NCBI GenBank assembly: GCA_016703765.1 | Contig: JADJBL010000036.1 | Location: forward strand, 1-42,893 | Direction: 5' to 3' | Length of the DNA: 42,893 bases | Origin: Saprospirales bacterium | GTDB taxonomy: Bacteria; Bacteroidota; Bacteroidia; Chitinophagales; Saprospiraceae | In this document: in pieces, positions 3,486 through 36,745 of the stretch | Layout of the letters: each line of letters begins with the position of its first letter | Position numbering within the stretch: the first letter of the stretch is position 1 | Position numbers and translations under genes: made by a program | Notes under the pieces: model-generated | Told to the model about the DNA's origin: nothing | Seen by the model: the letters and a program-made list of their open reading frames with translations, nothing else | The model's database searches: none

Positions 3486-5048
3486 CTAAATCTTAACCAG
3501 CGTTCTGCTCTTTTGCCGGCCGTTCTCCAACTGCACCCTCACATAATACGTACCGGGCGCCAGGCGGCTTCCGTTGAAGGGCACTTCGTGCTGGCCCGCG
3601 GGAAGCACCTTGTCGAACAACACTTCTCTTTCGCAGCTCAGGGAGTCGAATACGCTGAGGCGCACCCGCTCGTGGCTGCTCGTGAAGCGGATGCTGACCT
3701 GCGATTGGAAAGGATTCGGGTAGACGAACAGGTCCACCTCCTCGGGCTGGGCGACCAGATCGCTCGAGCCGGAGGGACTGCAGGGCTGGATGACGGGGAT
3801 GTATTGAAATTCGGGATGCAGCAGATCGAGAATGGAATCCTGGGGCACGCCGAACCAATCCATCAGCACGGAGCCGTAGATATCGCGGAAGTCGTACTGC
3901 AATGCCACTCCGTCCTGGTCGCCGATCGGATCGGGGATGTCGGGGTTGTCGCCCAGGAGGCCTGGGTTGATGCAGGAGCCGAAGATCAGCAGCGGCGCCG
4001 CCGAGCCGTGGTCCGTGCCGAAGCTGTCGTTCGACTGGATGCGGCGGCCGAATTCGCTAAAAGTCATCGTTAATACTCGCTCCTCCAGACCCAACAATTG
4101 CAGGTCCTCCTGGAAAGCGGCCACGGCGTCCGACAGAGTCTTGAGCAGGTCGGCGTGTTCGCCGATGGTGGTATCTCCGTCGTTTTCGACCTGATTGGCA
4201 TGGGTGTCGAAACCGCCCAGGCTGGCCACGTAGATGCGGGTCTTCAATCCCCCCTTGATGAGCAGGGCGACGTTTTTCAATTGCTGAGCCAGCCCGTTGT
4301 CGGCCGGATAATTGGCCAGATTGCTTCCCAGGTTGGCGGCGTCGGTGATCACATCCGAATATTCATTCGTCTGCAAAATGCTCTGCCGCATGAAGGTGAG
4401 CTCGTCGCCGTAGGGCGTGTTGGGGGCAGTGTCCTCTCCTCCGGAGGCCAGGGGATAGAGGTTGAAAGGATCGGTGATCGCCAGGCTGTAGTTGGCGCCG
4501 ACGCCCTGGCAGGTGGACGACACCAGCGAGCCGATGGTGATGGCGAAGGGGTCGGGATAGTCGGGGTTGGGGTAATTGTCGGGGAAGCCTACGTGGTCGA
4601 CGTCGAGGTAACGGCCCAGCCAGCCGGTGTTCCAGGTTTGTTCGGCCGGGGAGCCGGAGGTCCAGATATCCGTCGATCGGAAGTGGGAGCGGTTCTGGTT
4701 GGGATACCCTGCCCCTTGAACCACCGTCATGCGGGCGTTGTCGTACACGCTTTTCAGGCCGGTCATGACGGGATGCAAGCCGGTTTCGGGGCTCAGTAGG
4801 AGGGCGCTGTTTTCCGGGATCAGGATATTGGGCCGGGCGTTGGCCAGCTTGCTGTACTGATCGAGCGGAAGAATCATATTGAGGCCGTCGTTGCCGCCGT
4901 TGAGTTGGATGAGGACCAGCACCTTGTCCGTATCGCCGTTGAAGGCGTTGAAGAGGGAATTGCGGCCCAGGGCTCTCACGCCAAACCCGTTGAGAAGGAG
5001 CGGTAAGCTGACAGCCGTAGAGGTCTTTATAAAATCTCTGCGTTTCAT
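3486..5048 (-). CDS. DUF1501 domain exported protein with T9SS sorting domain
   Basis: The 520-residue protein begins MKRRDFIKTS, a twin-arginine-like export leader followed by a hydrophobic stretch (SLPLLLNGFGV). Residues ~40-425 are the DUF1501 domain, an alkaline-phosphatase/sulfatase-fold family; landmarks are VLIQLNGGNDGLNM, ASLGGFDTHANQ, TMTFSEFGRR and GTDHGSAAPLLIFG. The last ~80 residues are a T9SS type A sorting domain (LFVYPNPFQSQVSI to GTYYVRVQLENG). The DUF1800 gene starts upstream, ends 27 bp before this ATG, and is its usual genomic partner, so the two form an operon. The DUF1501/DUF1800 pair is widespread but its substrate is not established. Family and localisation are secure; enzymatic activity is not. 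Confidence 0.9.
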   Translation of the reverse strand: MKRRDFIKTSTAVSLPLLLNGFGVRALGRNSLFNAFNGDTDKVLVLIQLNGGNDGLNMILPLDQYSKLANARPNILIPENSALLLSPETGLHPVMTGLKSVYDNARMTVVQGAGYPNQNRSHFRSTDIWTSGSPAEQTWNTGWLGRYLDVDHVGFPDNYPNPDYPDPFAITIGSLVSSTCQGVGANYSLAITDPFNLYPLASGGEDTAPNTPYGDELTFMRQSILQTNEYSDVITDAANLGSNLANYPADNGLAQQLKNVALLIKGGLKTRIYVASLGGFDTHANQVENDGDTTIGEHADLLKTLSDAVAAFQEDLQLLGLEERVLTMTFSEFGRRIQSNDSFGTDHGSAAPLLIFGSCINPGLLGDNPDIPDPIGDQDGVALQYDFRDIYGSVLMDWFGVPQDSILDLLHPEFQYIPVIQPCSPSGSSDLVAQPEEVDLFVYPNPFQSQVSIRFTSSHERVRLSVFDSLSCEREVLFDKVLPAGQHEVPFNGSRLAPGTYYVRVQLENGRQKSRTLVKI

Positions 5049-5075
5049 TGTTCGATCTTTTTTGGGTTTAGCAAA

Positions 5076-6755
5076 TTAGCTTAGATAAAATTCCGGCAGG
5101 TTCATCATGGCCTTTAGCAACAGGCGCAGCTGAAGCTCTATCGGGCCGTAATAAACCGGGTTGGTCGGATCGGCGAGATAGTCGGCGTATTCGATCGTCC
5201 ATTCGTAGTCGGGCAGGCCCGGAAGCAGGATGTTTTTCAGAAAGGTCTTCTGATTCTCCGTAATGGGCTGCGGGAGCAGGATCTTGCTCAAGTCGTCGAT
5301 GAGTTGATTGGGATCGGCCGGGTCGTCGAGGGTCGCCGCCAGGGCGAGCACGTCGATCTTCAGGGTGACGCCTCCGCCGGCGCTGATGCCCGTCGTCGTT
5401 ACCCCATCGGTGATCTGCATGCGGTAAGGCAGGGTCACCGAATTGATCCAGGTGCGGTAGAACAGGGGCTCCTGGTAGTACGCCTTCCAGCCCGCCACGT
5501 CGGGGGGGTTGAAGATTTGCATTTGAAGCAGGGAGAGGGGTTCGGCCATCTTCAGCCAAGCTCTGTACTGGCCGTTCAGGTTGGCGGGTATCGGCATATC
5601 CACCGTTTTAGAGGCGGTCAGCACAAAATCGACCGGGTTTTTGATCATGGGGCCTATACTCAGTGCGTCGAAAAAGTGCTCGCTCTTGAGCAGGGTCTCC
5701 AGAGCCGGAACGATATCGTAATCGTTGTCGATGAGCACCTGGGCCAGGGGCTCGATGACGTCTGTTTCCACTGTGGCGTCGATGACGTAATAGACAAACC
5801 AGCGGTATAGTTTGCGGCAAATAAAGCGGGCTACTTCGTCCTGGAGGAATATGATATCGACGAGGTTTTTGTATTCATCCGCTCCGGCGTTGGGTATTTG
5901 CACATCGTCGAAGCGGTAGGACAGTTGTTTGGTGGTATTATCGTGGCGGTTGGGAACAAAATTCGAACCTACGGGGGTGGCCGGATTGGTGGTTCGATAT
6001 CCGGTATCCCTCCACCCGGTGAGCACCTTGGCGATTTCGGATACGTCCTGTTCGGTATAATTGGTGTAATCGCCGGGCCCCACCTGCTGTCCTTTTCCGA
6101 TGGTGAATAACTCGAGCAATTCTCGGGCATAGTTCTCGTTGGGCGCGGTCTTGGTGTTCTGGCTCCCGTTTAGGTAGCGCAGCATGGCGGGGTCGATGGT
6201 GACGTCTTTCACCAGTTGACGGAAATTGCCCAGGGCGCTGCTTCGAAGGGTGGTAATGTACCGGTAGATAAACTTGGCGTCGCTCACCGAAGCCAGTGAA
6301 GTGACGAAATGATTGTGCCAAAAAAGAGTCATTTTTTCCCGAACGGACATTCCCTCTGCGACCATGACCCCCATATTCCAGGCGTAAAGGGATTGGGTGC
6401 GGTAGCCAAACAGGTTGACGGTATCCGAGTAAGGCGCATCGATCCAGGTTTCCCCGATCGGTACGTTGGGGTCGTTGTTGTTATTGGAATTGAGTGGCGG
6501 GTCCGGCATCGGGGTATCGGCCAGGAGGGCGGCGATGGTGGCGTCGAGACCAAGGTTTTGCGCCTCTTTGATAAGGGAGTAATTGGGTCCCATGGTACTG
6601 CGCCGCATCAGGTGAGCGGCTTGTTCGAAGCCCCAGGGGCCGGTGTAAGGAGTCAGGCCGGTCACCACGGCGGTCGACATCGCCCTGGTTTTTGCCCCCT
6701 TTTTGGAGGAGGTTTTTCGGCCCAACAATGCTGCGAGAGTAGCTCTTCTGTCCAT
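5076..6755 (-). CDS. DUF1800 domain protein
   Basis: The 559-residue protein has the DUF1800 landmarks: AAHLMRRSTMG near residue 50, the MTLFWHNHF helix near 142-150, NENYARELLELFTIG, VSEIAKVLTGWR and a late NPPDVAGWKAYY segment. The FVTS and RYLNG segments are also typical. The N-terminus is rich in K and R without an obvious cleavable signal, as is common when the family is annotated from the first ATG; a Tat-like export route is possible. It lies first in a two-gene minus-strand operon with the DUF1501 gene, the conserved partner. The biochemical role of the family is not established. Confidence 0.9.
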   Translation of the reverse strand: MDRRATLAALLGRKTSSKKGAKTRAMSTAVVTGLTPYTGPWGFEQAAHLMRRSTMGPNYSLIKEAQNLGLDATIAALLADTPMPDPPLNSNNNNDPNVPIGETWIDAPYSDTVNLFGYRTQSLYAWNMGVMVAEGMSVREKMTLFWHNHFVTSLASVSDAKFIYRYITTLRSSALGNFRQLVKDVTIDPAMLRYLNGSQNTKTAPNENYARELLELFTIGKGQQVGPGDYTNYTEQDVSEIAKVLTGWRDTGYRTTNPATPVGSNFVPNRHDNTTKQLSYRFDDVQIPNAGADEYKNLVDIIFLQDEVARFICRKLYRWFVYYVIDATVETDVIEPLAQVLIDNDYDIVPALETLLKSEHFFDALSIGPMIKNPVDFVLTASKTVDMPIPANLNGQYRAWLKMAEPLSLLQMQIFNPPDVAGWKAYYQEPLFYRTWINSVTLPYRMQITDGVTTTGISAGGGVTLKIDVLALAATLDDPADPNQLIDDLSKILLPQPITENQKTFLKNILLPGLPDYEWTIEYADYLADPTNPVYYGPIELQLRLLLKAMMNLPEFYLS

Positions 6756-15802: not shown

Positions 15803-15914
15803 GTTGGAGGCTTATTTCATTTCCTATAATGCAAGTTGCAATAATTTTTTATCCTCGCAAAACTTACAAAATCCCCGTAATGTTATTTGAAATAACCGTT
15901 TTAACCCATTGTCC

Positions 15915-16553
15915 ATGACAGCTCAGGCCATTTCCCTCAACGAACGGGAAGCAATCCAGAAATATTTCGGCAAAGCCCTGGAAGAATTGACCATTCAGGA
16001 GTTTCAGCGCATCCGCAAGGAGCTCAGGTCCAAATTCCATCCCGACAACTTCGAGAAGTTCGAAGACGACACCGTCCGGGAAATGGCGACCGAGCGCTTC
16101 CAGCATATCGAGGGCCTGACGGAAAAAATGGAGGCCTATTTTCAGGGAGAACTACCCGCACAAGGCGAAGGGGCGCCGGTTGCAACCCCCGCGAGCTACG
16201 CCTTCGAGGGCATGAAGATCGAGATCCTCACCACCGACAAAGACCTCAAATACGACCTGTTCGGCTCTTTTTACAAATGGCTCCGGCTGGGCGAACAGTT
16301 CAAGATCCCCCATACCGCCAACGCCTATATCATCATGGACGAAGACCACCGCGGCGTCCGGATCGGATACAGCGAAACGATCCGAATGTACCTCACTTTC
16401 GGAGTAGACGACGCTATCGAAGATATCGTGGAGTGGTTTTTCCAGCGCATCCACGGCCGGGCCATGGGCCTGCTCATCCACGGCCAGAAAATCGAAGTGG
16501 ATTATAACGCGATATTGGGGGCGGTGAGGAAGCCTTCCTTGCTATTAGCATAG
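15915..16553 (+). CDS. J-domain-like protein of unknown function
   Basis: The 212-residue cytoplasmic protein contains, near residues 18-75, two amphipathic helices joined by a loop with HPD at positions 42-44 (KFHPDNFEKFEDD). This arrangement, with a basic helix before HPD and a helix with RFQHIEGLTEKMEAY after it, resembles the J domain that stimulates DnaK ATPase. A linker with PAQGEGAPVATPAS leads to an ~115-residue alpha/beta domain (MKIEILTTDKDLKYDLFGSF to VDYNAILGAV) that I do not recognise. There is no G/F region or zinc finger. ATG 15915 is preferred over TTG 15909. The gene converges on the ABC operon, sharing a hairpin at 16561-16610. Confidence 0.6.
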   Translation: MTAQAISLNEREAIQKYFGKALEELTIQEFQRIRKELRSKFHPDNFEKFEDDTVREMATERFQHIEGLTEKMEAYFQGELPAQGEGAPVATPASYAFEGMKIEILTTDKDLKYDLFGSFYKWLRLGEQFKIPHTANAYIIMDEDHRGVRIGYSETIRMYLTFGVDDAIEDIVEWFFQRIHGRAMGLLIHGQKIEVDYNAILGAVRKPSLLLA

Positions 16554-16560
16554 TTAATAA

Positions 16561-16610
16561 GTTAATAAGGGTATAAGTTTTTGGCAATAATAACTTATTC
16601 CCTTATTAAC
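16561..16610. terminator. Bidirectional hairpin of GTTAATAAG units
   Basis: Arms 16561-16579 (GTTAATAAGGGTATAAGTT) and 16592-16610 (AACTTATTCCCTTATTAAC) pair with 18 of 19 matches and a 12-base loop. The hairpin fills the gap between the J-domain-like gene (stop 16551-16553) and the ABC ATPase gene (stop at 16611-16613), which face each other. Placement suggests a shared terminator. Confidence 0.65.
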
Positions 16611-17405
16611 TCAAAAACTAACAACCTTTAGCATCCTATCCTCCACATCCCTCACCAGTTCCATAAAATGGGTCTGGCGTTTGATCTCCCGATCCCGTTT
16701 GAAGGGGAGGTCGACGGCTACGTGCTCGATAAAACGGGAGGGCGCCCTTTTCATCATGTAAATATCGTCGCCGAGGTAAACGGCTTCGGAGATGTCGTGG
16801 GTGACAAAGACCACGGTGGGATGAAATTTGTACCAAAGTTCGAGCAGCAACTCCTGCATTTGCAGGCGGGTATTGATGTCCAGCGCGCCGAAGGGCTCGT
16901 CCATGAGGAGGATATCCGGGTTGGCGATCATGCTTCTGGCGATGGCCACCCGTTGCAATTGTCCGCCCGAAAGGGTCGGATACTGGGCAAATTTTTTCTC
17001 ATGGCCCGCGAGCCCCACCAACTCGATGAACTCCATCGCTTTGCTGTTGCGCTCTTTTTCCTCTACTCCCTTGTATCGAAGGCCCAGCGCCACGTTGTCC
17101 AGCACCGTCATCCAGGGCAGGGAAGAGTATTGTTGAAACACCATACTCACCCGGTTATCGGTCGTGATGGGCTTGTCGTGAATGAGCACTTCGCCCGTGG
17201 TGGGTTTCTGCAAGCCGGCGATATACCGCAAAATGGTCGATTTTCCGCAGCCCGAAGCGCCGAGGATCACGATGAACTGGCCCTGGTCCGCCTTGTCCTC
17301 GATCAACATGTCCAGGTGCTGAATGATGAAGGTCTTCCCTCCATCGTAGCTCTGGCTGATGTCCTTCAGTTGCACAATATTGGGCTGCTCAGTATCTTTA
17401 AACAT
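16611..17405 (-). CDS. ABC transporter ATP-binding protein, NitT/TauT type
   Basis: The 264-residue protein has all ABC ATPase motifs: Walker A GASGCGKST (49-57), Q-loop VFQQYSSLPW, signature LSGGQLQR (145-152), Walker B ILLMDEPFGALD, and the switch histidine in VFVTHDISEA. The DEPFGALD form and the length are typical of the nitrate/sulfonate/taurine importer branch. I chose ATG 17405; an upstream extension to 17519 would run into the permease gene and has no similarity. It ends the minus-strand operon, 17 bp downstream of the permease, and would drive transport at the cytoplasmic face of the inner membrane. Confidence 0.93.
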   Translation of the reverse strand: MFKDTEQPNIVQLKDISQSYDGGKTFIIQHLDMLIEDKADQGQFIVILGASGCGKSTILRYIAGLQKPTTGEVLIHDKPITTDNRVSMVFQQYSSLPWMTVLDNVALGLRYKGVEEKERNSKAMEFIELVGLAGHEKKFAQYPTLSGGQLQRVAIARSMIANPDILLMDEPFGALDINTRLQMQELLLELWYKFHPTVVFVTHDISEAVYLGDDIYMMKRAPSRFIEHVAVDLPFKRDREIKRQTHFMELVRDVEDRMLKVVSF

Positions 17406-17422
17406 GGTGGTCTTTTTTCGAA

Positions 17423-19138
17423 TCAGGCCTGAACGCCTGCGCGCCAGATCTTGATCTCTCCGTAAACAATGATAAGCAGGGCGGAAACAACCGTGACAAC
17501 GGCCAGCAAATTCATCCATTCTGCAAACGAGGGCAACAGCCAGCGCTGCAGGAGCACCAGCACCAGCATCCCCAGGATGACCAGGAATCCGGCTTCGGTT
17601 TCGCGAAGCCCCGGCGACATGGTCTTGAAATATTTATGCGGGAAAAGCCGGCGATCCATCCAGACAAAAATGCGGTCCTGCAGGAAGCCGATCAGGATGA
17701 TGACGATGAGCATGGCGAACACCTTGGGTATCTCGCCCTGCCGCGCTTTGATATAGATCAGGGCTCCAATACCGCCGATATCGCCCTGGCGGTTCACCAG
17801 TTCGGCGATGATGATATAGGTCCAGGAAATGGCGGTGAGCACCCGGATATCGTCGATCAGCTTGGACATTACCGCGGGAAAGTACACCGTGCGGATGGTT
17901 TGCCAGTTGCTGGCGCCCAGGGTAAACACCGTGGTGGTATATACTTCCTCCACCTCGAAAATGCGCTGCACGACCACCGGTAGCAGATAGACGATGATAC
18001 CGAAGGCCAGGAAAGCGACCTTCATCTCGTTTTCGATCCCGAACCAGATGATGAACAGACCCGTCAGGGCCGTGAGGGGAAGATAGCGCAGCGCATCGAC
18101 CTGTTTGCTGAACAGCCCCTTGGCCAGAGGCATCAGGCCAATGATAAAGCCGATTGGGATGGAGATCAGCACCGCCCACAAATACCCCTGCACGTTGATC
18201 CAAAGGGATTGCAGCGTGTTGGGGATCAGTTTATCTTCATTGACCAGTTCCGGGAATGAATTCACCACCATGCCCGGGGTGGGCAAAATGGGGTATACCC
18301 TGCCGCCGGATCCACCGGCATCCTGCGATGGCGCCGCGGCCTGGCTATGTTCGACGAGCGAAATCTCAAAGGTATCCGCCGAGGCGCTGCCGTCTTCGCT
18401 GATGGCTTCCACGCCCAGGAAAACTTTGCTTCCGCGGATGGCCTTCAGCGCCACCGTATCGGCCACAGTGACCTGGCCCGAGCGGGGGTTCACGGCGAAG
18501 GGGGAGCCATCTACTGCGGTGAGGCGGTAGGAAACCGCATCGCCCGCATCGCCGTCTTTGGCATAAACGGTCAGACCGGTCCCTGCGCCGGGATAGGATT
18601 TTCGACCCGCTTCATTGGGGGCGGGATCGATATCTTCAATTTTTCCGATGGGAAATTCGTCGACGTCGCCGATCTGGATAAAGAAACTGGCGCTCGCCTT
18701 TCCACCCTTAGGGTTCGTCCCATTGGCTACGATCGAAAGAGAGGTAGATCGTTCGTAATCCAATCCTGCTGCGCGGGCTACCGAAATCCTGCCCGAAAGC
18801 GGATCGACGGCAAAAATGCCGGAGGCATCGTCGGACAGGCTAAAGGTGGCGCCGGCGCCTGAAGTGGCGGAATCCGGGAAAGCCAGGGTCAGCCCGGTAT
18901 AGGCGCCGTCGCCCGATTTTTCCATCACCCGGTTTTCCGTCGGATCGGCATCGTGGAGACGAATCCCGCTCACGACCTCCACCGCATCCGGGTCTTCCGG
19001 CAAGTCCCGGTTTGCCTTGCTCCGGTCGACCGAAAAGGCCTCAGCGAGCAGCCACCAGAGGGCGAGAAATATAAATATCCCGGCAATGCCCAGCAGGAGG
19101 GCTTGGCGGCTGGTTAGGGGTCCTCGTAGTTGGAACAT
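17423..19138 (-). CDS. ABC permease, NitT/TauT type, with two cadherin-like repeats in the periplasmic loop
   Basis: The 571-residue permease starts with a membrane helix (residues ~14-34, LLLGIAGIFIFLALWWLLAEAF). Residues ~50-265 form two cadherin-like repeats. The first ends FAVDPLSGRISVARAAGLDYER with a DVDEFP closing motif; the second has FAVNPRSGQVTVAD. A core permease domain follows (~300-500) with an EAA-type loop around TLGASNWQTIRTVYFPAVM and several membrane helices. Two further hydrophobic segments lie near the C-terminus (FLVILGMLVLVLLQRWL and LLAVVTVVSALLIIVYGEI). With an N-in start, the cadherin-like part faces the periplasm. Ordinary family members are about 250-280 residues and lack this insert. 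It lies between the OmpA-fused binding protein and the ATPase, so it belongs to the same importer. Confidence 0.88.
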   Translation of the reverse strand: MFQLRGPLTSRQALLLGIAGIFIFLALWWLLAEAFSVDRSKANRDLPEDPDAVEVVSGIRLHDADPTENRVMEKSGDGAYTGLTLAFPDSATSGAGATFSLSDDASGIFAVDPLSGRISVARAAGLDYERSTSLSIVANGTNPKGGKASASFFIQIGDVDEFPIGKIEDIDPAPNEAGRKSYPGAGTGLTVYAKDGDAGDAVSYRLTAVDGSPFAVNPRSGQVTVADTVALKAIRGSKVFLGVEAISEDGSASADTFEISLVEHSQAAAPSQDAGGSGGRVYPILPTPGMVVNSFPELVNEDKLIPNTLQSLWINVQGYLWAVLISIPIGFIIGLMPLAKGLFSKQVDALRYLPLTALTGLFIIWFGIENEMKVAFLAFGIIVYLLPVVVQRIFEVEEVYTTTVFTLGASNWQTIRTVYFPAVMSKLIDDIRVLTAISWTYIIIAELVNRQGDIGGIGALIYIKARQGEIPKVFAMLIVIILIGFLQDRIFVWMDRRLFPHKYFKTMSPGLRETEAGFLVILGMLVLVLLQRWLLPSFAEWMNLLAVVTVVSALLIIVYGEIKIWRAGVQA

Positions 19139-19146
19139 CGTTGTTG

Positions 19147-19224
19147 GTGACTAGTGATTAGTGACTGGTGACTGGTGGCTAGTGACTTGCATAGACCAGT
19201 CACTAGTCACCGGTCACTGGTCAC
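19147..19224 (-). repeat. Intercistronic hairpin of GTGACTGG units within the ABC operon
   Basis: The left arm 19147-19175 and right arm 19196-19224 pair with 24 of 29 matches, several of the rest being G-U compatible, around a 20-base loop. Both arms are built from GTGACTGG/GTGACTAG units. On the transcript it starts at the stop codon of the binding-protein gene (19221-19223) and ends just before the permease start (19138). It could slow 3' decay of the upstream mRNA or reduce permease expression (inference). Confidence 0.6.
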
Positions 19225-20774
19225 TCTCTGACTATTTCAAAATCCGTCCTTCTATTCCTTGCCTTACCCTCATCGGTGCCATTATCCGCCACCGGTTTAT
19301 CGGGGCCGTTGCCTACGACGATGAAGCGGCTGGCGGGCATTTTATGGACGCTGACCAGGTAGTTCTTCACAGACTCTGCGCGCTTTTTGGAAAGCGACAC
19401 GTTGGAGCTGCGGCCGCCGACGTTGTCGGTATTTCCCTCGATGCGGATGCGGGCGTTGGAGAATGCCTTGGCGATCTCGACAAATTCCTTGTCGATGATG
19501 TATTTGGCATTTTCGTCGAGCTGGAATTCACCGGAACGGAAGGTGATGCTGACCTGTTTAACGGCCACCGCTTCCCTGGATTTTCCTTCGCTTTCGGGGA
19601 GCTGTTCAAACTCCTTGGCGGCTTCGGCCATGTGCTCGGCCCCGGTCAGGCTCGTACCCTTCACCAGGTCGGGATAGGCGATCAGTCGCCAGTTGGGCAC
19701 GTCGCCGGTAATAAAATCCAGGTCGCTGTACACATTGGCCATGCGGGTATAGAGGCTGCTGCCGGTCACGCCCTGGTAGCTGGAGTTGAGGCCGAAAAAG
19801 TTCTGGTTGTCGCCATGGGTGCAGAGGCGCACGTTGTTGATGGCGTTGTAGGTATTCTCTTCGGTAAAGCCGGGGAAGTTCTCGGAGAGGATCTTTGCGG
19901 CTTTGCGCTTATTGGCGTCAGAGGCGTTGATCTCGGCTGCGCCTTTCATCCAGCCTTCGTAGAGTTGTTGCAGGCGTTCTTTATTCGCCTCCACAAAAGA
20001 GCGCTTGGCGATGAACACGTCGGCGATGATATTGGAAGCCGAACGCGTGCTTTCCAACACCCGGGAACCGGGCACGGAGCGGAGGCAATCTTCGTCGTCC
20101 GGGCTCCACACCACCGCGGCATCTACCCGCTGGGCCTTGAACACCCCGGCTGCGTCGATGGCGCTGGATTGTGCGATGATCTCCACATCGGCGATCGACA
20201 ATCCGCCGGCTTCCAACAGCCAGAGCAGGAAGGAATGCGAGGGAGTCAATTCAGCCACCGCGATCTTCTTACCCTTAAGGTCGGCCACGGAGTTGATACC
20301 CCTGCGGGCCACGATGGCGTCGCCGCCTCGCGACCAGTCGGCCTGGAAGACGACCACGGGGTCGAAGTCCTTCAATCCGTTGACTTCCGTGGGAAATGCG
20401 TCGATGGTGGACCAGAGCAACTGGACTTCATCGCTTTTCCAGGCGGCGCGGGAGGCGTCGAAATCGTCGAGGATCTTGAAATCCACTTTAAAACCATAGT
20501 CCTTGTAGAAGCGGGAGTTGGTATTGGCAGCAAACCCTTCGTTGAAGTATTGCCCGCCGGCGTACCCGCCCCAGGTTACAACCCCGACGCTGATCCCGTC
20601 ATCCTTGCCCATGGGCTTGGAGTCGGAGCCGGTGTCGGAATTTTCTCCGCCTTGTTTTTTGAGATTCATGCCAAATTCAGTGTTGTCGAGCACATATTTG
20701 CCGCCAAGCACGATCGCCCCCACGATGCCGATGGTGATGAGGAATTTGGAGAAAGTGGTGAGTCGTTTTGCCAT
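19221..20774 (-). CDS. ABC substrate-binding protein (NitT/TauT-like) fused to OmpA C-terminal domain
   Basis: The 517-residue protein has an uncleaved-looking N-terminal membrane helix (FLITIGIVGAIVLGGKYVL, ~10-28). A type II periplasmic binding domain (~60-375) opens with SVGVVTWGGYAGGQYFNEGF and includes LKGKKIAVAELTPSHSFLLW and RVDAAVVWSPDDEDCL. The last ~115 residues are an OmpA-like peptidoglycan-binding domain: VSITFRSGEFQLDENAKYI, IEGNTDNVGG, LSKKRAESVKNYLV and a final RNRRTDFEIV. Normal binding proteins are free or lipid-anchored, so this one would be tethered both to the inner membrane and to the cell wall. Permease and ATPase genes follow in order. The fusion resembles proteins annotated elsewhere as phosphate ABC transporter substrate-binding/OmpA family (recalled, not searched). 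The ligand is unknown. Confidence 0.88.
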   Translation of the reverse strand: MAKRLTTFSKFLITIGIVGAIVLGGKYVLDNTEFGMNLKKQGGENSDTGSDSKPMGKDDGISVGVVTWGGYAGGQYFNEGFAANTNSRFYKDYGFKVDFKILDDFDASRAAWKSDEVQLLWSTIDAFPTEVNGLKDFDPVVVFQADWSRGGDAIVARRGINSVADLKGKKIAVAELTPSHSFLLWLLEAGGLSIADVEIIAQSSAIDAAGVFKAQRVDAAVVWSPDDEDCLRSVPGSRVLESTRSASNIIADVFIAKRSFVEANKERLQQLYEGWMKGAAEINASDANKRKAAKILSENFPGFTEENTYNAINNVRLCTHGDNQNFFGLNSSYQGVTGSSLYTRMANVYSDLDFITGDVPNWRLIAYPDLVKGTSLTGAEHMAEAAKEFEQLPESEGKSREAVAVKQVSITFRSGEFQLDENAKYIIDKEFVEIAKAFSNARIRIEGNTDNVGGRSSNVSLSKKRAESVKNYLVSVHKMPASRFIVVGNGPDKPVADNGTDEGKARNRRTDFEIVRE

Positions 20775-20800
20775 TTTTATTGGTATTGGTATTGAGGTAA

Positions 20801-20841
20801 TAAGTTAATAAGTTATTGACTTTAAATAACTTATTAACTTA
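20801..20841 (-). repeat. Perfect 17-bp inverted repeat between two operon genes
   Basis: TAAGTTAATAAGTTATT (20801-20817) and AATAACTTATTAACTTA (20825-20841) are exact reverse complements separated by seven bases. The repeat sits between the stop of the coiled-coil membrane protein gene (20854) and the start of the binding-protein gene (20774). It uses the same TTAATAAG unit as the terminator at 16561-16610, so it could cause partial termination or mRNA processing inside the operon. Confidence 0.65.
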
Positions 20842-20853
20842 AAAACTAATTAG

Positions 20854-21838
20854 CTACTCAAAGAAGCTATCATACTGATTCACATGCGTAGCCGTATCCC
20901 TAACCGGCCGTTTGATGGGCGCATTGAGGTCGAGCACGTCGGATTCGTCGTTGGCCTGGGAGAGCAGGGATTCTTTTTCGCTGCCGAGGATCTTGGAAAT
21001 GCCTTCTTTTTCCCATTGCTCGAGCATACGGAGTCCTTCTTCCTCGAACACGCCGTTCTGGAGGTCGACCGAGTCCATGAAGTTGGCGGACAGATCCATG
21101 AAGCGCTCCATTTCGCCCACTTTCTCGCTCACATCGTCGGCGATGGCTTCCAGGGCCATGTCGAACATGGCGCGGGCGTCTTTATCGCCGGCGATCACAT
21201 TCATGGCCGAGCGCATGGCGGAGTTGGAGGCGTGGATGGCGATGCGCTCCTGCTCCTTGACCATCACCTGGTCCTTGATATCTTCTTTCAGGATCTCTGA
21301 ATTCTCGTGCATTTTGGTGAGCACCCGGTAGAGAACCTCCATTTTGCGGTAGAGGTCTTCCAGGCGCATATTCGACTCCTTGAGGCGGCCCGCTTTGCGG
21401 GACTTGAGGATCATGACGTCCTGCTTATTGATTTCTTTGGCCTTGTTGGCAAGTGCGGAGCTTATGCATCTGTCCGCGCAGCTTGTTGACCTGCAAGCCC
21501 ATTTTTTTGAGGTTGTCTTCCAGGCTGTCTACGTACGATTTCAGGATGCCGATGGGGTCGATCTGGACGAAGAGGCCGGTCACGGCGCGCATCACGCTTT
21601 TGTACACATACCAGATCAGGTTCCGCATTTTGGGATCGACGACCATGTAGACGATTGCGGCCAGGGCCACAAGCATGATCGCGAGGTACAGGGTATTGGC
21701 CATCAGGGGGATCAGTATGGGCAGCAGGGTGACGGCGAGGAAGCCGCCTCCGAGGACAATTCCTGCGAGGAAAATGGCGCCGGTGACGCCTTCGGGGCGT
21801 TTCCAGAACGATTTGCCTTTGATTTCGGGGTTCTCCAT
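20854..21838 (-). CDS. Membrane-anchored coiled-coil protein, PspA-like helical region (frameshifted)
   Basis: Two adjacent frames are read here as one ~327-residue protein. The first part (21838 to ~21455) has two membrane helices (GAIFLAGIVLGGGFLAVTLL and TLYLAIMLVALAAIVYMVV) and begins a helical region with IDPIGILKSYVDSLEDNLKKM. Near 21448-21462 the frame changes, and the other frame continues directly as LANKAKEINKQDVMILKSRK, then 150 residues of predicted helix with a late ALEAIADDVSEKVGEMERFMD segment. The span is 985 nt, consistent with one extra base. The helical part recalls PspA/ESCRT-III-like proteins, with several long amphipathic helices and a coiled coil, but sequence identity is not established. 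The layout also resembles XpaC-type proteins. It lies between a coiled-coil gene and the OmpA-fused binding protein. Confidence 0.7.
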
Positions 21839-21904
21839 GTAGTTTAAGATTTTAACGCAATTATTCGGCTTGAAGGTAACGCCCCTGCGCTGGTAAAAGG
21901 TCCG

Positions 21905-22555
21905 CTAATGCAGAAATTTTTTCATATTATCGATATCCAGTTGGATTTGGCTGACCAGGGCGTTGTAGGAGGCGATAAAGTCGTTTTTGGTGCTCTCCAC
22001 TTTTTGGGAGGCCTTTTCGACCTCGTCCTGGAGTTGCGCCGCCTGGGTGCGGTGGGCTTCGATCTCTGCCATTAGCTTTTTGATGGTCGCTTCCTTTTCC
22101 TGGATGGTATTCTTCAGGGTCTGCTGGTGCTGGATTTTTTGACCGATCTTTTCCTCCTGTTGCTTGCCCAGGGCAGTCTCGAATTTATTGCTTTCCTGCT
22201 TGAGCACGTTGACGTAGTGGGCGGCAGACTGGAGCAACCGGGCCGGGTCAGCGCCCAAGGTCCTGGCCATGGCAAGGGCGGATTGGTAACGGGTGGCCTC
22301 GTCCATCGGCATCTTTTCGAGGGATTTGAGCGACTGCTTGAACTCAAGGTAGTCGAAGCCCTCCTGGTTATCGCGCTCCATGGCGGAAAACAATACCTCC
22401 GTAAATTTATCGCTCACTTTTCCGGGTTCCCCGGCGCTGCTTTCCTTTGCCAGCGGGACGCTGGAGGGTACCGCGACAGGCTGCGGGGTTTCTCCTTTCT
22501 TTTTGGAGCTTTCCTCGTCTTCGACGATAAAGAGCGATTTGAGGTTTTTTAACAT
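21905..22555 (-). CDS. Cytoplasmic coiled-coil protein, first gene of the ABC operon
   Basis: The 216-residue protein has no signal peptide or membrane helix. Residues ~1-45 are low-complexity and charged (VEDEESSKKKGE, then a P/S/A-rich stretch). Residues ~48-120 are a helical domain (SDKFTEVLFSAMERDNQEGFDYLEF, MPMDEATRYQSALAMARTLG). Residues ~120-216 are a long coiled coil rich in Q, E and K (KQQEEKIGQKIQHQQTLK to VEKASQKVESTKNDF). I do not recognise a named family. It precedes the membrane coiled-coil gene by 66 bp, in the same direction, and is presumably its cytoplasmic partner. Gene order suggests a TelA-like position in comparable operons, but no TelA similarity is claimed. Confidence 0.72.
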   Translation of the reverse strand: MLKNLKSLFIVEDEESSKKKGETPQPVAVPSSVPLAKESSAGEPGKVSDKFTEVLFSAMERDNQEGFDYLEFKQSLKSLEKMPMDEATRYQSALAMARTLGADPARLLQSAAHYVNVLKQESNKFETALGKQQEEKIGQKIQHQQTLKNTIQEKEATIKKLMAEIEAHRTQAAQLQDEVEKASQKVESTKNDFIASYNALVSQIQLDIDNMKKFLH

Positions 22556-29129: not shown

Positions 29130-32100
29130 TCAGTATTTCACCGCCAACATCTTCCGCATCACACTCCCCCGTTCGGTCACCAACTCGGCAAACAACACAC
29201 CGCCTATACCATTCAGCCGCAGCGTTTCTATTTGTTGGCCGGCTGTATAGTATTTTTTTTGGGAAAACAACAGGCGCCCCGCTGCATCGCTGATCCGCAA
29301 TTCAGCTTCGCCCGCTTCCGGCAACACAAAATAAAGCGAAGTCACCTCCGTAAACGGATTCGGTTGGTTTGTCAGTAACACCGGCTGGTAGTTAGCGTGT
29401 ACAACATCAGTCCATTCCAAATACCGCAATTCCACCTCCAACTCCGTATAAGCGCTGTTATATGCATACCCCGGCAAAGCCTCTTCATCTAATTGCAACA
29501 CCTCGCTCAGCCGCGCCCCGCTTTCTATGGCTTTGAATCGCAAGCGGAATACGGGCGCCGCTTCGTTCAGCATCAACGCCGCCGCCTGCGACCACACCAC
29601 CCGGATTTCGCCTTCGGCTAAATTATACGTCCCGAAATTGTCCATCGATACCGGTAATCCGTCGCTGGCGGGCACTATTTCCAGCAATTGCAACTGCGCC
29701 GGATCGAAATGCAGGGCGAACTGGAAGGAATTAAGATCGTTCAACTGGTCGGCCATGAACTCGGCTGTCAATTCCGAACCGGCTTCCAGCAACTGGTCTT
29801 GTACCAGGAATACCAATGATTCGCCTGCGCCCAGGTTGGCCGGGTTGGCCCAGGTAGTCACCACGTCTCCCAATTTGATTCCTTTAAAATCCTGACCGGT
29901 GACGTTGCCGTTCACCCCGCTCAGGTTGATTTGCTCGGGGAAGCCCCAGGGCACGTTCGGGTTGGGGAAGGTATAGGACGCCGGCACGAAACGCCACGAA
30001 GTGATCTGGTTCAGCGCAGATGGGTTGCCCAACAGCGCCTGGTTGATGAGCGTGGCGTCGGTGGTATTGATGGAATTGCTCTTGTTCACGTCGGCAGCGA
30101 TACGTTTGAACGGGGCGGGCAGCAGGGTGTTGTTTGCCACGTGTTGTTGGATGGCGGTGACGTCGGCGGAGCTCAGGCCGTTGAGTTTGTTGGTATTTTT
30201 GACGGGTTTCAGGATGAAATTCCCCGTCGTGTTCGGAATGATGATCAGATAGTTGCCCGCCACATCCGTCATATCGCTCCCGGCGCCCGCACCGGTCAGG
30301 TTGACCACGGTGTTGTTCACCCCGCTCGTGTTGTTGTGCTCCCAAATAACGGCGCCGCTGAATTCAATCGAGCAGGGGGCGACGGTAATGGTGATATCAG
30401 CGCTCGTGCTGCATCCCTCCAGGTTGGTCATGGTCAGTTCGTACTCCGTGGTCTGTTCAGGGGATACGGTGATACAGTCCGAATTGCCCAGGTCGCCCAA
30501 TGGATCAGACCAGCTGAAGGTAGAGCCGGGCAGGTAAAAGATATCCTTCATGCTGCTCGTAAAGGCGGACGCGGTCACATCCTGATAGGCGCCGTTGGAG
30601 AGGTTCAGCTCCCGGATGCCGTATTCAAATATCGATCCGCAATACAATTTATTATCGCCAACGTATTCCATCGCCATGGCGGTAACCGGGGTCGAAAAGA
30701 GAAAGGTACTGGCGCCTGAAACGGGGTTTATCGCATACAGTTGCGAACCACTGCCCGTCGCATAGATCAGCCTGTCGTTGTCGAAATCATAGGTCAGGCC
30801 TACATACCCATTGCTCGGCAAGCCCGGGGAAACGGGGAAGGCCATGGCCGTAACGCCGGATCCGGAGTAAATCAACTTGTTGATCACGCCGCCGTTAAAA
30901 GAGGCGAACAGGTTCCCCTGCGCCAAGTTGGATCATCTGGCTGGTGGCCAGATCAAAGCTGAAGAGCGTGCGCAAGCCTCCGGGACCATTTGCAATGAGC
31001 ATTATTTCGTTCGTGACGGGGTTTCTGCCCATCCCGTAATTGTTGGTATTTGTGGCGCCGTTGTACGAGTTGTCGAGATCCAGCTCCTGATTTTCAAAAT
31101 CGGGCGTATACTTCATCAAGACGTAGTAGGCATCAAGGGTGTACAAAGTGCCGTCCAGAGGCGGCACAGAGGCGCAAAGCTCCACCGATGCCCCTTCGCA
31201 AATGTCGGTCGGGCCGTCGGGCAGGATGGAAAGCGGAGGAAGCGGCGGGTAATTACCGATGGTAAAGCAGGCCGGCGCAAGCGGTCCGCAGTCGCCCGAG
31301 ATCACCACGCAATACTGCCCCGCGCCGAGGTTGGAGATCGAAGGCGAAGTGGCGCCGTTGCTCCACACATACGTCGCTCCTTCGATCACCGGGGCTGAAA
31401 TGGTTCCGTTGTTAGCTCCTGTACAAATTTTGTTCGTACCTGTCAGCGCAATCCCCGTTTGAAAGGAGATGGCGCCGTTGGAACCGCCACTGCCCTCGGT
31501 CACCCGAAATTCCACCTGGCTATCTTCATTGAGGTAACCCGACCAGGCGCCGGCATGGCTGTCGCAACAGCCGATATGTTCCCAAACCATCGACCCGTCC
31601 ACCCAAAGCTGGGCCGCATCGTCGTGCGCGTCGATATTGATGCTGTAATAGTTGCAGGGGAAACCCTTCCCTTTTTGCACTGTACGAATGGTTGTCGATG
31701 TTCACGGAGCAACCCTGGTATCCGGGCGCTGAAGAGGGCGAATTATTGGCGTTCCACTGGTTTTGGGTATTGAAGTTCAGACCGGAAGCGGTATAATAAC
31801 CCGAATAAGCCGTATTCCAGGAATTGCCACTGTTTTGCGCGCCGCCGGCATTCCAGGCGTACACGTTCCATACCTGATTGCCGAATACCGCGGGGTCGCC
31901 GGCCGGGCCGTTCACGAAGCCCGAGGCCTGTATAGAGCAGCCGTTGCCGTTGTCGATCGTTACTCCGTATGTGCCCGCGTTCGAAACCGCGATCGTCGGC
32001 GTGGCGGCGCCGGTGGACCACAAGTAGTTGCCCTGGACATTCCCCTGAACGGACAAGGTGGTGGAGGCGTTTCCGCACAACCCGCTCAGTCCTGCGATCT

Positions 32101-35100
32101 GGGGTGAAACGGTCTGGAAGGAAATGGCGCCATTGGACCCTCCGGTTCCTTCCGTCACCCTGAATTCCACTTCGCTGTCCTCATCGAGGAAGCCCGTCCA
32201 GGCGCCGGTATGGCTATCGCAGCAACCCGTATGCTCCCATACCATGGCGCCGTCGACCCAAAGCTGGGCCGCATCGTCGTGCGCGTCGATATTTATGCTG
32301 TAGTAGCCGCAGGTAAAACCCCTGCGTTTGGCGCTGTAGGAGTGGTTGTCCAGGCCGACCGCGCAGCCCTGGTAGCCGGGGGCGGAAGAGGGGGATGCGG
32401 CGGCGTTCCATTGGTTCTGGGTATTGAAATTCGTGCCCGTAGCCGTGTAGAAGCCCGAATAATCGACATTCCAGGAATTGCCCGTGGGAACCGAGCCACC
32501 GGCATTCCAGGCATACACATTCCATACGTTGTCGCCGAAAACCGTGGGATCGCCCGGAGGAGCGCCGATGGCAACTTCGATGGTATTGCTGTTCACAATG
32601 AGGGGGTAGGCGCAGGGTTGTGAGCTGGTCATCGTGCAGCTCACCACATCGCCGGCCTGCAAGGTGTAGGAAGTAAAGCTGGGGCTGTTGGAACCGGCGG
32701 GGACCCCGTCCACTTTCCACTGGTACACAGGCGTGGGGCCTCCGTTAACCGGGGTAGCCGTAAAAGTAGCGCCGGCTTCCGGACAGACGATCAACTCCGG
32801 ACCGGCTATAGCGACGGAAGGCGTCGTGGTTTGCATGGTAAATTGATATTCCCAGGCGCCCATGTCGGTTTGGGCTTCAGGCAAACCGATGGAATTGAAA
32901 GGCCGCGGATTCCCGTCGAAATCTTCAGTCGGCGCGCCGGTATTGGTCCCCATATCTATGGCCGGGGAGCATTCCTGGAGGCGCAGGTCGCCTGTGGCGC
33001 CCAGGCCGATAGGCGGTTGTTGGACGAAGAGCGGGTTGAGGTTCAGGTTGCCGGCGCCGGGATAGACACCGCTGGCCTGCTGTACGATGGAATAGGTCAC
33101 GGAAGGATTGCCTCCGTTGCCGCTTCCAAATTCCGTATTGTTTCCCCAAAAGATGCAGTTGACGTAAATCAAACCGGAAGACCCATTGTCGTTGCGAACG
33201 GCGCCCCCCGAGGTACTGGCCGTATTGCCCGAGAAGGAGCAATTAATCACAGAGGAAGGAGCGTAGGTGAAGGCGTTGTACAAGCCCCCGCCGAGGGTGG
33301 CGGAATTGCCGGAAAAGCTGCAGTTTTGGATGGTCGGGGTGGCGGAAATATTTATAATTCCACCGCCGCTGATTGCCGAATTTCCTTTGAAACTGCAGCT
33401 GCTGATATTGGGGACGGAACCAGTTTCGTTGATCATTCCGCCGCCGTTTGAATTTGCCGTATTCCCGGTAAAGCTGCAGTCGATCAGGGTAGGTGAGGAA
33501 CTGTAGTTGTTCATCCCGCCGCCATTCTGGCCTGCGGTATTTTCAAAAAACACGCAGTCGCTAAGGTTTAGCGAGGAGTATTGGTTGTACATCCCACCGC
33601 CTCTGCTTGTGGCCGTGTTTTCGGTAAAATCGCAGGTGGTCAGGCTCAGGTTGGTCGATTGTTGATTGTACATCCCGCCCCCTTCATTTGCTGCATTGTT
33701 GGAGAAGTCGCAGCTTATCAGGGCCGGAGACCCGTTTGATATATACATCCCGCCGCCCTTGGAGCTTGCCGTATTGCCGGAGAACAGGCAATTATTCAAG
33801 GTAGGATTACTGGAAGAACCGCAGTACATCCCGCCGCCGTCTCCTGCTGAATTATTGGAAAAAGTACACCCGGTCGTCGACGGAGAGGAGTAATAATAAT
33901 TATATACCCCGCCCCCGGAATAGTTTGCCGCATTGCCGTCGAAGTCGCAGGTATTGAGATTTGGAGAAGAATTATAATTGTAAATGCCCCCGCCGCTGTT
34001 GGCATAGTTGCCGGAGAAGCTGCAATTTGTAAAACCGGGCGAGGCGTTTTCGTTGGAAACTCCACCTCCTCCCCCGCTTGTCGAATTGGCGGTAAACATG
34101 CAATTGCTCAGCGCGGGTGAGGAGTTTTTGCAGTACATCCCGCCGCCGTTGCCTGCCGGCAGATAATAGAGGCCATTCGCATTCCCGCCGGTGATGGTAA
34201 ACCCGTCGAGGATGGCGGTGTTGTTCAGGCCATTGCTATTGTTCATGAGAATATTGTAGGAATTGTCGCTGCGCGACGCATGGCCGGTTAGCTGGTTCGG
34301 CGGGATATTGGAGGCGTCATTTCCCAACAGGTCCCCGCTGAGGATGGTGACGTTGCTGGTCCAGTTGCGTTGGGCAAGGCTGGTTTCCGTGCCGTTGAAG
34401 CCGCCGTAAACCGCTATTCCGTTTTTCAGCACAAATGCAGCGTTGCGATCGGAGCCGCTTGTGGGCTTGTACACCCCTGAGGCCACCCAGATCTGGCTGA
34501 AGGTGGGACAGGTGTTCGTCAGGGCGCTTTGCAGGTCAGTGAAGGCGTCGGCCCAGGAGGAGCCGTCGTTGTCGCCGTTTGCGCCGGCATGGACGTAGAG
34601 AATCCCCACCGGGCAGCAGACGTAGTTTTCGTCGATCCCTCCGTCGCAGTCGTTGTCGATGCCGTCGCATAGCTCCGGAGCGCCGGGGTTGATATCGGGG
34701 TTACCGTCCTGGCAATCGCCGAGGCCGTCGAGTTCGGAGAGCATAAAGCCGTTTGTCGGGCGATCGCATTGCTGGACCAGCGTATTGCCGTAATCGTCGC
34801 CGTCGGCGTCGATATACCACACTGAATTGGCGCCGGGCGGCACGGGCGTCTGGCGCTCATAGGCGCCCATATCTGTATCGTTGTTGTATGGACGCGGGTT
34901 TCCGTCGAGATCGGTGTTTGGTGCGCCGCTGTTCGTGCCCTCGTCAATGGCCGGGGAGCATTCCTGGAGGCGCAGGTCGCCCGCTGTGCCCAGGCCCACG
35001 GGGGGCTGGTCGACGAAGATGGGGTCCAGGTTCAGGTTGTCCGTTCCGGCATGACCGCCCTGCACGATGGAATAGCTGACCTGTGGGTTGCAGTTGGGCC

Positions 35101-36745
35101 CGTTTGCTATAGCCGAGCTGTTTCCCCAAATAATGGAATTTAGGATTACCGGGCTGAAGTTGAAATAGTTTTCGATGGTACCTCCGGTAGTAGCCGTATT
35201 TCCGGAAAAGCTGCAGTTGGTGATGGTCATGGAGCCGGTATGGCTGCGAATGGCGCCTCCGCTAGTCGCCGCCGAATTGCCCAAAAAGATACAGTTGGTC
35301 AGAGAGGCGGAGGAGCCGCTTACGTCGAGGGCGCCGCCGTAGTTTGCCGAGTTGCCCGAAAAGGTGCAGGCGATCAGGGTAGGAAAAGAGGAGAAAATGT
35401 TCTCCATGGCGCCGCCCCATTCCGATGTATTACTGGTGAAGGTACAATTGGTCAGGGTTGGGTTGGAAGATTCTTCGTTGTGCATCCCGCCGCCCCAGTT
35501 GCTGGACGAGTTGCCGGTGAATGTGCAGTCGGTGACGGTGGGACTGGAGGAGTTGCTGTTTGCCATACCGCTGCCCGCGTAGGCCCCTGTATTTTGGGAG
35601 AATTCGCAACCGCTCACCATGGGAGAGGCATTGTTGTTATACATCCCGGCCCCGCGGACGTTCGCTATGTTTTCAGAAAAGATACAGTCCACCAGGTTAG
35701 GGGCGGAGCCGCTGTTATTGCCCATTCCGCCCCCGTAATAGGAGGAGAAGTTCTCCGTGAAAGTGCATCCGTCGAGGGTCGGCGAGGAGGAGGAATTGTT
35801 CATCCCTCCTCCGTTGCCGGCCACGGTGTTTCCCGAAAAAGAACAGTCGGTCAGGGTCGGGTTGGAACCGTAGTTGTTGTCCATACCTCCGCCGATATGG
35901 GCAGAATTGCCGGTAAAAGAGCAGTTGGTCAGGATCGGGCTGGAAGAATATTCATTGTACATCCCGCCGCCGCTGCCGGACGCCGAATTTCCCGAAAAGC
36001 CGCAATCGGTCAGGGTCGGGGAAGAGTTGTTGGTGTTGAACATTCCGGCGCCCACGGGGGCCGAATGGGAGGAAAAGGTGCAGCCGGTAAGGGTCGGCGA
36101 GGAACCGTTGTTGTGCATTCCCGCGCCGGTGTATGCGCCATTGGAGGTAAAGCTGCAGTTGGTCAGCGCCGGGTTGGAGGCGTTCTGGTTGAACATCCCC
36201 CCGCCGGACGCGGAGGCCGAATTGGAGGAAAAAATGCAATTGGCGAGGGTCGGCGAGGAGTTGTCGTTGTACATCCCGCCGCCGGTATCGTTCCAGTAGT
36301 ATTCATTGGCATTGCCAAACGCGATGGTAAAGCCGTCGAGCGAAGCGGTGCTGTTCAGGCCCGCGTTCTTGACCACGTGGTAGGAGTTGTCGCTGTTGTT
36401 GCCCTGTGCGTCTAAGTCGCCGCTCAGGGTAGTGAGGTTGGTTTCCCAATCTCGCTGTTCGAGCAGGGTTTCCGTGCCCGTGAAGCCGCCGTAAACCGCC
36501 ACGCCGTTTTTCAGCGCAAAGGAAATCCCCCGGTTGAAAGCAGAAGGTTTGTACGTGCCTGCGGCAACCCATACCTGGTCGTTTGCCGCGGAGGCGTTGA
36601 TTATGGTTTGCAGGTTGGAAGAGGCATTCGCCCAGGAGCTGCCATTCCCGGAGCCGCTGGGTATTGGTTTTACATAGCGGATGGTTTGCGCATTGGCTGC
36701 AAATGCCGAAAAGGCGAAAAGGACAAGGAGAAAGAAAGTTTTCAT
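29130..36745 (-). CDS. Giant T9SS-secreted surface protein with duplicated beta-helix and PA14-like modules (two frameshifts)
   Basis: Three frames are read as one protein of about 2,537 residues. It has a signal peptide (MKTFFLLVLFAFSAFAANAQ). Two tandem halves each contain an N-cap, a beta-helix of repeats like TLTDCSFSGNxAxxxGGGMYN, and a choice-of-anchor close (CSPAIDxGTN). Between them is a MopE-like metal-binding motif (CDGIDNDCDGGIDENY). An Ig-like domain follows, then two near-identical PA14/GLEYA-like domains (WNVYAWNAGG to WVDGxMVWEH), WSNGA-type repeats, a propeller-like part, a dockerin-like region (LSSADVTAIQQHV, DVNKSNSINTTDATLINQ), a cohesin-like domain (FQFALHFDPAQLQLLEIVPA) and a T9SS sorting domain. 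Frameshifts, each one extra base, lie at 31669-31671 and 30923-30924. The repeated second PA14-like copy shows the correct frame. Likely adhesion or glycan binding (inference). Confidence 0.85.

Follow-up and report, generated by a model that had tools for sequence, protein, structure and literature searches.

We describe a five-gene operon on the minus strand of a 42,893-nucleotide (nt) contig from a Saprospirales bacterium (JADJBL010000036.1, analyzed over its whole length and called the window below), which runs from position 22555 to 16611 and encodes two coiled-coil proteins, a solute-binding protein fused to an OmpA domain (SBP-OmpA), a permease with a cadherin-like insert, and an ATP-binding cassette (ABC) ATPase. 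The operon is real, conserved, and largely of a kind already described, and the cadherin insert is a rare, testable addition to it. We see about an even chance that the operon specifies an importer of the nitrate/taurine type that is tethered to the peptidoglycan and has, on the cytoplasmic side, a scaffold shaped like PspA/ESCRT-III. If this is true, a wall-bound binding protein linked to proteins of membrane-remodeling shape would tie nutrient uptake to envelope integrity.

An earlier note on this DNA had placed the five genes in this order on one strand with short gaps; reading frames, strand, and gaps are confirmed, and the open reading frames (ORFs) and Pfam matches agree with that order, with gene 2 split in the window:

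21905..22555, minus strand: CC1, a 216-residue soluble coiled-coil protein, gene 1 of the operon (ORF)
20854..21838, minus strand: membrane coiled-coil gene, gene 2 of the operon, whole span (two ORFs in the window)
21425..21838, minus strand: front part of the membrane coiled-coil gene, 137 residues with hydrophobic helices (ORF; joined to the rear part in relatives)
20854..21414, minus strand: rear part of the membrane coiled-coil gene, 186 residues with long helices (ORF)
19221..20774, minus strand: SBP-OmpA, 517 residues, with an N-terminal hydrophobic segment, a binding domain of the NMT1/SsuA/TauA type, and an OmpA domain (Pfam, hydropathy)
17423..19138, minus strand: permease, 571 residues, with a first transmembrane helix (TM1), two cadherin-like domains (residues ~60–264), a BPD_transp_1 core, and extra C-terminal helices (Pfam, structural model, hydropathy)
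16611..17405, minus strand: ABC ATPase of the Tau/Ssu/Ntr class, 264 residues (Pfam, motifs in the translation)

The longest ORF for the ATPase begins at 17519; we set the start at 17405 because the median length in relatives is 267 residues. A count of six genes was ruled out, since a single broken gene accounts for the second and third ORFs; it is fused in relatives and intact in the near-copy P0258.

The five genes recur together

Eighty loci were retained from 368 confirmed SBP-OmpA profile matches, 62 of them with at least 2.6 kb before the SBP-OmpA gene and 58 with at least 2.5 kb after it. The membrane coiled-coil gene directly precedes SBP-OmpA (within ~540 nt) in 58 of the 62 loci, lies further off in one, and is not nearby in three, whose genomes hold one elsewhere; CC1 is in place upstream in 51 of these loci, further off in four, and not found in seven. 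On the other side, the permease follows SBP-OmpA within 600 nt in 32 of the 58 loci and is found further on in three; in the remaining 23 it is not in the fetched stretch, and 21 of these 23 genomes (12/13 plus 9/10) carry it elsewhere. The cultured relative Lewinella cohaerens DSM 23179 (L079) has the system with its permease on a different contig and with no cadherin insert. At six such split permease loci that we inspected, the ATPase gene follows the permease (as judged by tblastn for one of the six), and no SBP-OmpA relative was found there. As a separate observation, the split permease-ATPase pairs at loci L105, L106, and L107 are preceded by a divergent ORF of 278–280 residues.

Clustering the genes of the 80 loci returned the five operon families as the most frequent clusters (80, 65, 57, 42, and 38 loci), on one strand throughout, with a divergent glycosyltransferase next (18 loci). 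Because the five families are the five commonest clusters and always share one strand, the arrangement goes beyond chance; rare co-occurrence of the homologues would have refuted the earlier note, and a neighborhood check of the kind it proposed finds them together across the loci.

We also searched 198 genomes from the order to which Lewinella cohaerens belongs, with E-value limits of 1e-60 for SBP-OmpA and the permease, 1e-20 for the membrane coiled-coil protein, and 1e-6 for CC1. SBP-OmpA is found in 30 of these genomes, the permease in 30, and both in 29; the membrane coiled-coil protein is found in 55 and CC1 in 66, and all 30 genomes with SBP-OmpA possess both coiled-coil families. Two copies of the membrane coiled-coil protein are present in 35 of its 55 genomes, and since several of the second copies pair with their own CC1 paralogue and have no transporter nearby, the coiled-coil pair is a module of its own.

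Individual loci vary in this respect. At L093, L094, L099, and L100, the second coiled-coil pair stands without a transporter and has a shorter CC1 (179–200 residues); L101 has a membrane coiled-coil protein without CC1; and L096, L097, and L098 have a pair with a full-size CC1 (213–224 residues) and no SBP-OmpA beside it, in three genomes without an SBP-OmpA match in the order sample. A gene for an SPFH (Band 7) protein beside the coiled-coil paralogue at L094 was considered as a link to membrane stress and set aside as anecdotal: Band_7_1 matches occur in 43 of the 198 genomes, and when their positions were compared with those of the membrane coiled-coil copies, the two were adjacent only in genome G451. 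SbcC/SbcD-type genes beside the same copy at L094 were taken as chance neighbors.

In a phylum-wide sample of 296 genomes, for which at most five candidates per genome were scored with a profile built from close relatives, so that distant forms may be missed, SBP-OmpA profile matches were obtained in 13 genomes, full-length only in the center genome; in the other 12, the match runs from profile position 378 on, that is, it covers the OmpA end. Because there is one full-length match in 296 phylum genomes, the system seems to be mostly restricted to a single order.

A predicted wall-anchored binding protein with an importer of the nitrate/taurine class

The OmpA (79.1 bits, cut-off 27.2) and NMT1 (36.1 bits, cut-off 20.5) models of Pfam both match SBP-OmpA in one 517-residue chain. 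In the OmpA domain (PF00691), aligned to the structure 3td3, D450 and R465 are invariant across 20 sequences; these we take to be the Asp and Arg of the peptidoglycan-binding site. PDB sequence matches to this part of the protein include MotB, MotS, and PomB. MotB and PomB carry a membrane helix and an OmpA-type domain in a single chain, and SBP-OmpA resembles these wall-anchored inner-membrane proteins in that respect, but has a solute-binding domain where they have the stator linker. The N-terminal helix, together with an OmpA domain that keeps its binding-site residues, probably holds SBP-OmpA in place, and the anchoring to both inner membrane and wall put forward in the earlier note is, as far as sequence goes, backed by these domains. 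In ABC importers, the binding protein is normally either free or anchored by a lipid.

The permease, the ATPase, and the binding domain all score above the curated family cut-offs for an ABC importer of the NitT/TauT/nitrate type. The ATPase matches ABC_tran with 107.1 bits (cut-off 25), and its translation contains the Walker A motif GASGCGKST, the signature LSGGQ, and the Walker B motif LLMDEP. No NCBIfam model among those listed (the best 25 of 197 for the ATPase, all 5 for the permease, and the best 25 of 45 for the SBP) reached its cut-off, and no specific ligand subfamily (taurine, sulfonate, nitrate, or urea) is indicated. By their family matches, the permease and ATPase clearly belong to the nitrate/taurine/sulfonate importer class. 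The operon differs from NrtBCD, CmpBCD, TauABC, and SsuABC in that its SBP has an N-terminal hydrophobic helix and an OmpA domain and that its permease adds an insert of ~200 residues after TM1 as well as C-terminal helices.

The permease carries a rare cadherin insert

As the earlier note had recognized, the permease bears cadherin repeats: Cadherin (PF00028; 32.1 bits, cut-off 28.8) and BPD_transp_1 (43.3 bits, cut-off 26.4) match one 571-residue protein, a predicted model (mean pLDDT 74, pTM 0.46) has two cadherin-like sandwiches at residues ~60–264, and close homologues carry the region too. For the cadherin part, Foldseek matches cadherin-23 (E = 1.6e-11). The insert, ~200 residues long, lies between TM1 and the permease core; because of the charge pattern and the alignment to NrtB/CmpB, it is placed on the periplasmic side, and its site is inferred to be the first periplasmic loop.

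In 17 aligned rows, which include two pairs of near-copies, positions 73, 127, 129, 158, 161, 195, and 197 are kept in 16 or 17 rows, and position 160 has N in 15 rows and D in the other two; we take these residues to form the calcium-site motif between the two cadherin repeats. The insert is also retained in rows that are only 47–55% identical to the window permease. Overall, it is found in 2 of 40 permease ORFs of the loci and in 1 of the 30 permease genomes of the order sample, and in a family sample of 248 genomes, 152 of which have the permease, three matches among those listed, strongest first, cover it. Given these counts, the idea that the cadherin part belongs to the system in general was rejected; it is a rare, lineage-specific elaboration and not a defining part. 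It does occur in close homologues, all of which would have to lack it for the earlier note to be refuted on this point.

We built a midpoint-rooted tree of 121 permease cores; 39 of 160 rows had been dropped beforehand for a short core or a start motif that could not be located, including P0020 and P0026, both insert-bearing. All 15 cadherin rows fall inside one clade of 26 rows with support 98/93, together with nine rows without the insert and two (P0006 and P0064) that start within it; six label changes are needed for the cadherin character, at least four of them forced by starred branches. An independent origin of every cadherin permease was therefore rejected as the default, given that all 15 rows share the clade. 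Because the cadherin rows share one clade and P0006 and P0064 begin inside the insert, the simplest account of the tree is a single gain followed by several losses.

The coiled-coil proteins resemble PspA in predicted shape

CC1 (family alignment of 35 sequences) has nothing but weak coiled-coil matches in Pfam and no hydrophobic segment above threshold in the hydropathy analysis, and a PDB sequence search with it returned mostly generic coiled coils. Among 10 family members scanned, the best PspA/IM30 (PF04012) score was 23.6 bits against a cut-off of 33.9, and PspA_IM30 matches at E ≤ 1 were obtained in 16 of 40 members (best 3.8e-5); for four members of the membrane coiled-coil family, NCBIfam gave nothing near cut-off. 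The predicted fold of a relative (L001) is a long helical hairpin followed by shorter helices, as in PspA/Vipp1/ESCRT-III, and its structural score against ESCRT-III-type folds is no higher than against BAR domains. The hairpin may resemble that of PspA, Vipp1, and ESCRT-III proteins, whereas the N-terminal hydrophobic helices are a feature of the membrane coiled-coil protein described here. CC1 and the membrane coiled-coil protein gave no profile match to each other. The description of both coiled coils as PspA-like in the earlier note refers to a likeness of predicted shape more than to established sequence kinship, the PspA_IM30 cut-off being missed in the 10 members scanned.

Related operons

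Operons in which PspA and transmembrane Snf7 homologues are encoded with an AAA+ ATPase, an ABC ATPase, a permease, and a PBPB-OmpA protein have been described (PMC11237479, mSystems 2024). Its authors propose that the OmpA domain contacts peptidoglycan, and report a third coiled-coil gene in related neighborhoods in Bacteroidetes. As in the window, an ABC ATPase, a permease, and PBPB-OmpA stand beside a helical protein with transmembrane segments, a likeness that does not imply Snf7 family identity. The published operons hold an AAA+ ATPase, whereas Pfam finds none among the five genes of the operon in the window or the two genes flanking them (the recurrent neighbors in the 80 loci are mostly unscanned). 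The word "Cadherin" is absent from the main text of PMC11237479, and we found no description of a cadherin-bearing ABC permease in the open-access literature searched; the suggestion that the system as a whole may be undescribed does not hold for the general type of operon, which is in print (PMC11237479).

The earlier note also mentioned SBP-OmpA fusions in the neighborhood of TelA genes, and this neighborhood is present on the two Vibrio plasmids we looked at (L103 and L104; NZ_AP025146.1 and NZ_AP019851.1), where a homologous SBP-OmpA is encoded with ABC genes and TelA. Most of the Vibrio SBP-OmpA can be aligned with that of the window (hhalign probability 99.1, E = 9.2e-19), and the plasmid loci likewise hold an ABC ATPase, a BPD_transp_1 permease, and a helical partner with, by eye, apparent membrane segments. 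They differ in that the Vibrio protein scores below the Pfam cut-offs (OmpA 21.8 of 27.2, NMT1 18.8 of 20.5), that it is partnered by TelA, a von Willebrand A-domain protein, and additional binding proteins, and that the permease there has no Cadherin match. TelA is absent from the Pfam families listed for the window proteins. The coiled-coil proteins of the window gave no profile match to the Vibrio proteins tested, whether CC1 was compared with TelA and a Vibrio 196-residue protein or the membrane coiled-coil protein with TelA and a Vibrio 257-residue protein; the Vibrio profiles are of two sequences each, so distant kinship is possible. No description of the Vibrio SBP-OmpA/TelA locus was found in the open-access literature searched.

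Possible function of the system

In the reading to which we give an even chance, the binding domain would be tethered on one side to the inner membrane and on the other to the wall and, unlike a normal periplasmic binding protein, would not diffuse freely; its solute, small and probably anionic, would be passed on to the permease. The membrane coiled-coil protein would consist of N-terminal hydrophobic helices followed by the PspA/Vipp1/ESCRT-III-shaped hairpin, which we take to be cytoplasmic. It and CC1 would build a scaffold, or a brace that responds to stress, on the cytoplasmic face wherever the importer sits, and there the pair would probably brace or remodel the inner membrane beside the binding protein. 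Cadherin domains are used by animal cells for sticking together; here, in one lineage, two such domains with conserved calcium-site residues would have been inserted in the first periplasmic loop of the permease, probably as a calcium-stiffened stalk that extends in the direction of the wall or of the binding protein and sets the geometry or spacing of the complex.

It seems rather unlikely to us that the operon instead joins an ordinary nitrate/taurine/sulfonate-type importer to an independent membrane-maintenance pair, with an OmpA domain that merely retains the SBP in the periplasm and no scaffold. The membrane coiled-coil protein does occur without SBP-OmpA in 25 of 55 genomes and in two copies in 35 of 55, several of them accompanied by a separate CC1 paralogue, and many genomes have the permease and ATPase at another place, all as expected of independent parts. 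However, every one of the 30 SBP-OmpA genomes of the order sample carries both coiled-coil families, the membrane coiled-coil gene directly precedes SBP-OmpA in 58 of 62 loci, and a comparable partnership, of PspA and Snf7, has been published (PMC11237479). Whether or not the two halves work together, the cadherin part may be a lineage-specific decoration, a neutral or decaying insert in an otherwise standard system, as the three listed matches in 152 permease-bearing genomes and the 9 of 26 rows that lack it inside the cadherin clade would suggest. We find this doubtful, since at least 16 of the 17 rows keep each of seven of the eight calcium-site positions checked (with N in 15 and D in 2 at the eighth, position 160) and the insert persists in rows at only 47–55% identity to the window. 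The insert is a natural experiment in one lineage, and because relatives with and without it coexist in one clade, its role can be tested directly.

Two further readings were considered. One, which we regard as improbable, makes the system a sensor and not an importer, in which the wall-bound SBP and the permease would act as a receptor that informs the PspA-shaped pair of envelope spacing or of a ligand derived from the wall, with hardly any net transport. A permanently tethered binding protein would be unusual for an importer, and the related SBP-OmpA of the Vibrio plasmids is encoded together with TelA, a von Willebrand A-domain protein, and additional binding proteins, but the intact Walker A, signature, and Walker B motifs of the ATPase and the importer fold of the permease are what one expects of real transport. 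The other, a long shot in our view, is a trans-envelope machine that would couple import to envelope spacing: a membrane-anchored, ESCRT-III-like scaffold on the cytoplasmic face, a wall-bound SBP in the periplasm, and, in one lineage, a calcium-stiffened cadherin strut or ruler on the permease would permit transport only at the right distance between inner membrane and wall.

The broken gene, intergenic repeats, and surroundings

The front and rear halves of the membrane coiled-coil gene form one ORF, mostly of 335–350 residues, in 65 of the 68 loci that hold the rear half; of the other three, L053 and L071 begin at a contig edge and L063 is split. The closest of 360 proteins fetched, P0258, is intact and 342 residues long, with 97.7% identity to the front half in the window and 100% identity to the rear half (P0258 residues 157–342). 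Compared with P0258, 44 nt are missing from the window copy, a gap that breaks the frame and may be a strain lesion or an assembly error.

Three inverted repeats lie in or next to the operon:

20777..20865: inverted repeat with 41-nt arms, 73% complementary, which overlaps the end of the upstream gene by 12 nt and precedes the SBP-OmpA gene
19147..19225: inverted repeat of GTGACTAGT-type units
16551..16620: inverted repeat past the operon end, with 32-nt arms, 84% complementary

The repeats at 20777–20865 and 16551–16620 have AGTTAATAAG-type units in common (eight matches, with none expected), and no match to such units occurs elsewhere in the window. The hairpins said in the earlier note to be shared are thus shared between two of the three repeats, but the third, at 19147–19225, is made from a different unit.

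Upstream of the operon, a glycosyltransferase gene is divergent (22638, plus strand), and downstream, a gene at 15909–16553 (plus strand) converges on its end; neither was counted to the operon. The product of the latter has 214 residues and is without a significant Pfam or NCBIfam match. Elsewhere in the window, 31526–36745 encodes a 1739-residue protein with right-handed beta-helix repeats and a MopE-type metal-binding motif, and at 3486–6755, a DUF1501 gene with a Por secretion tail adjoins a DUF1800 gene.

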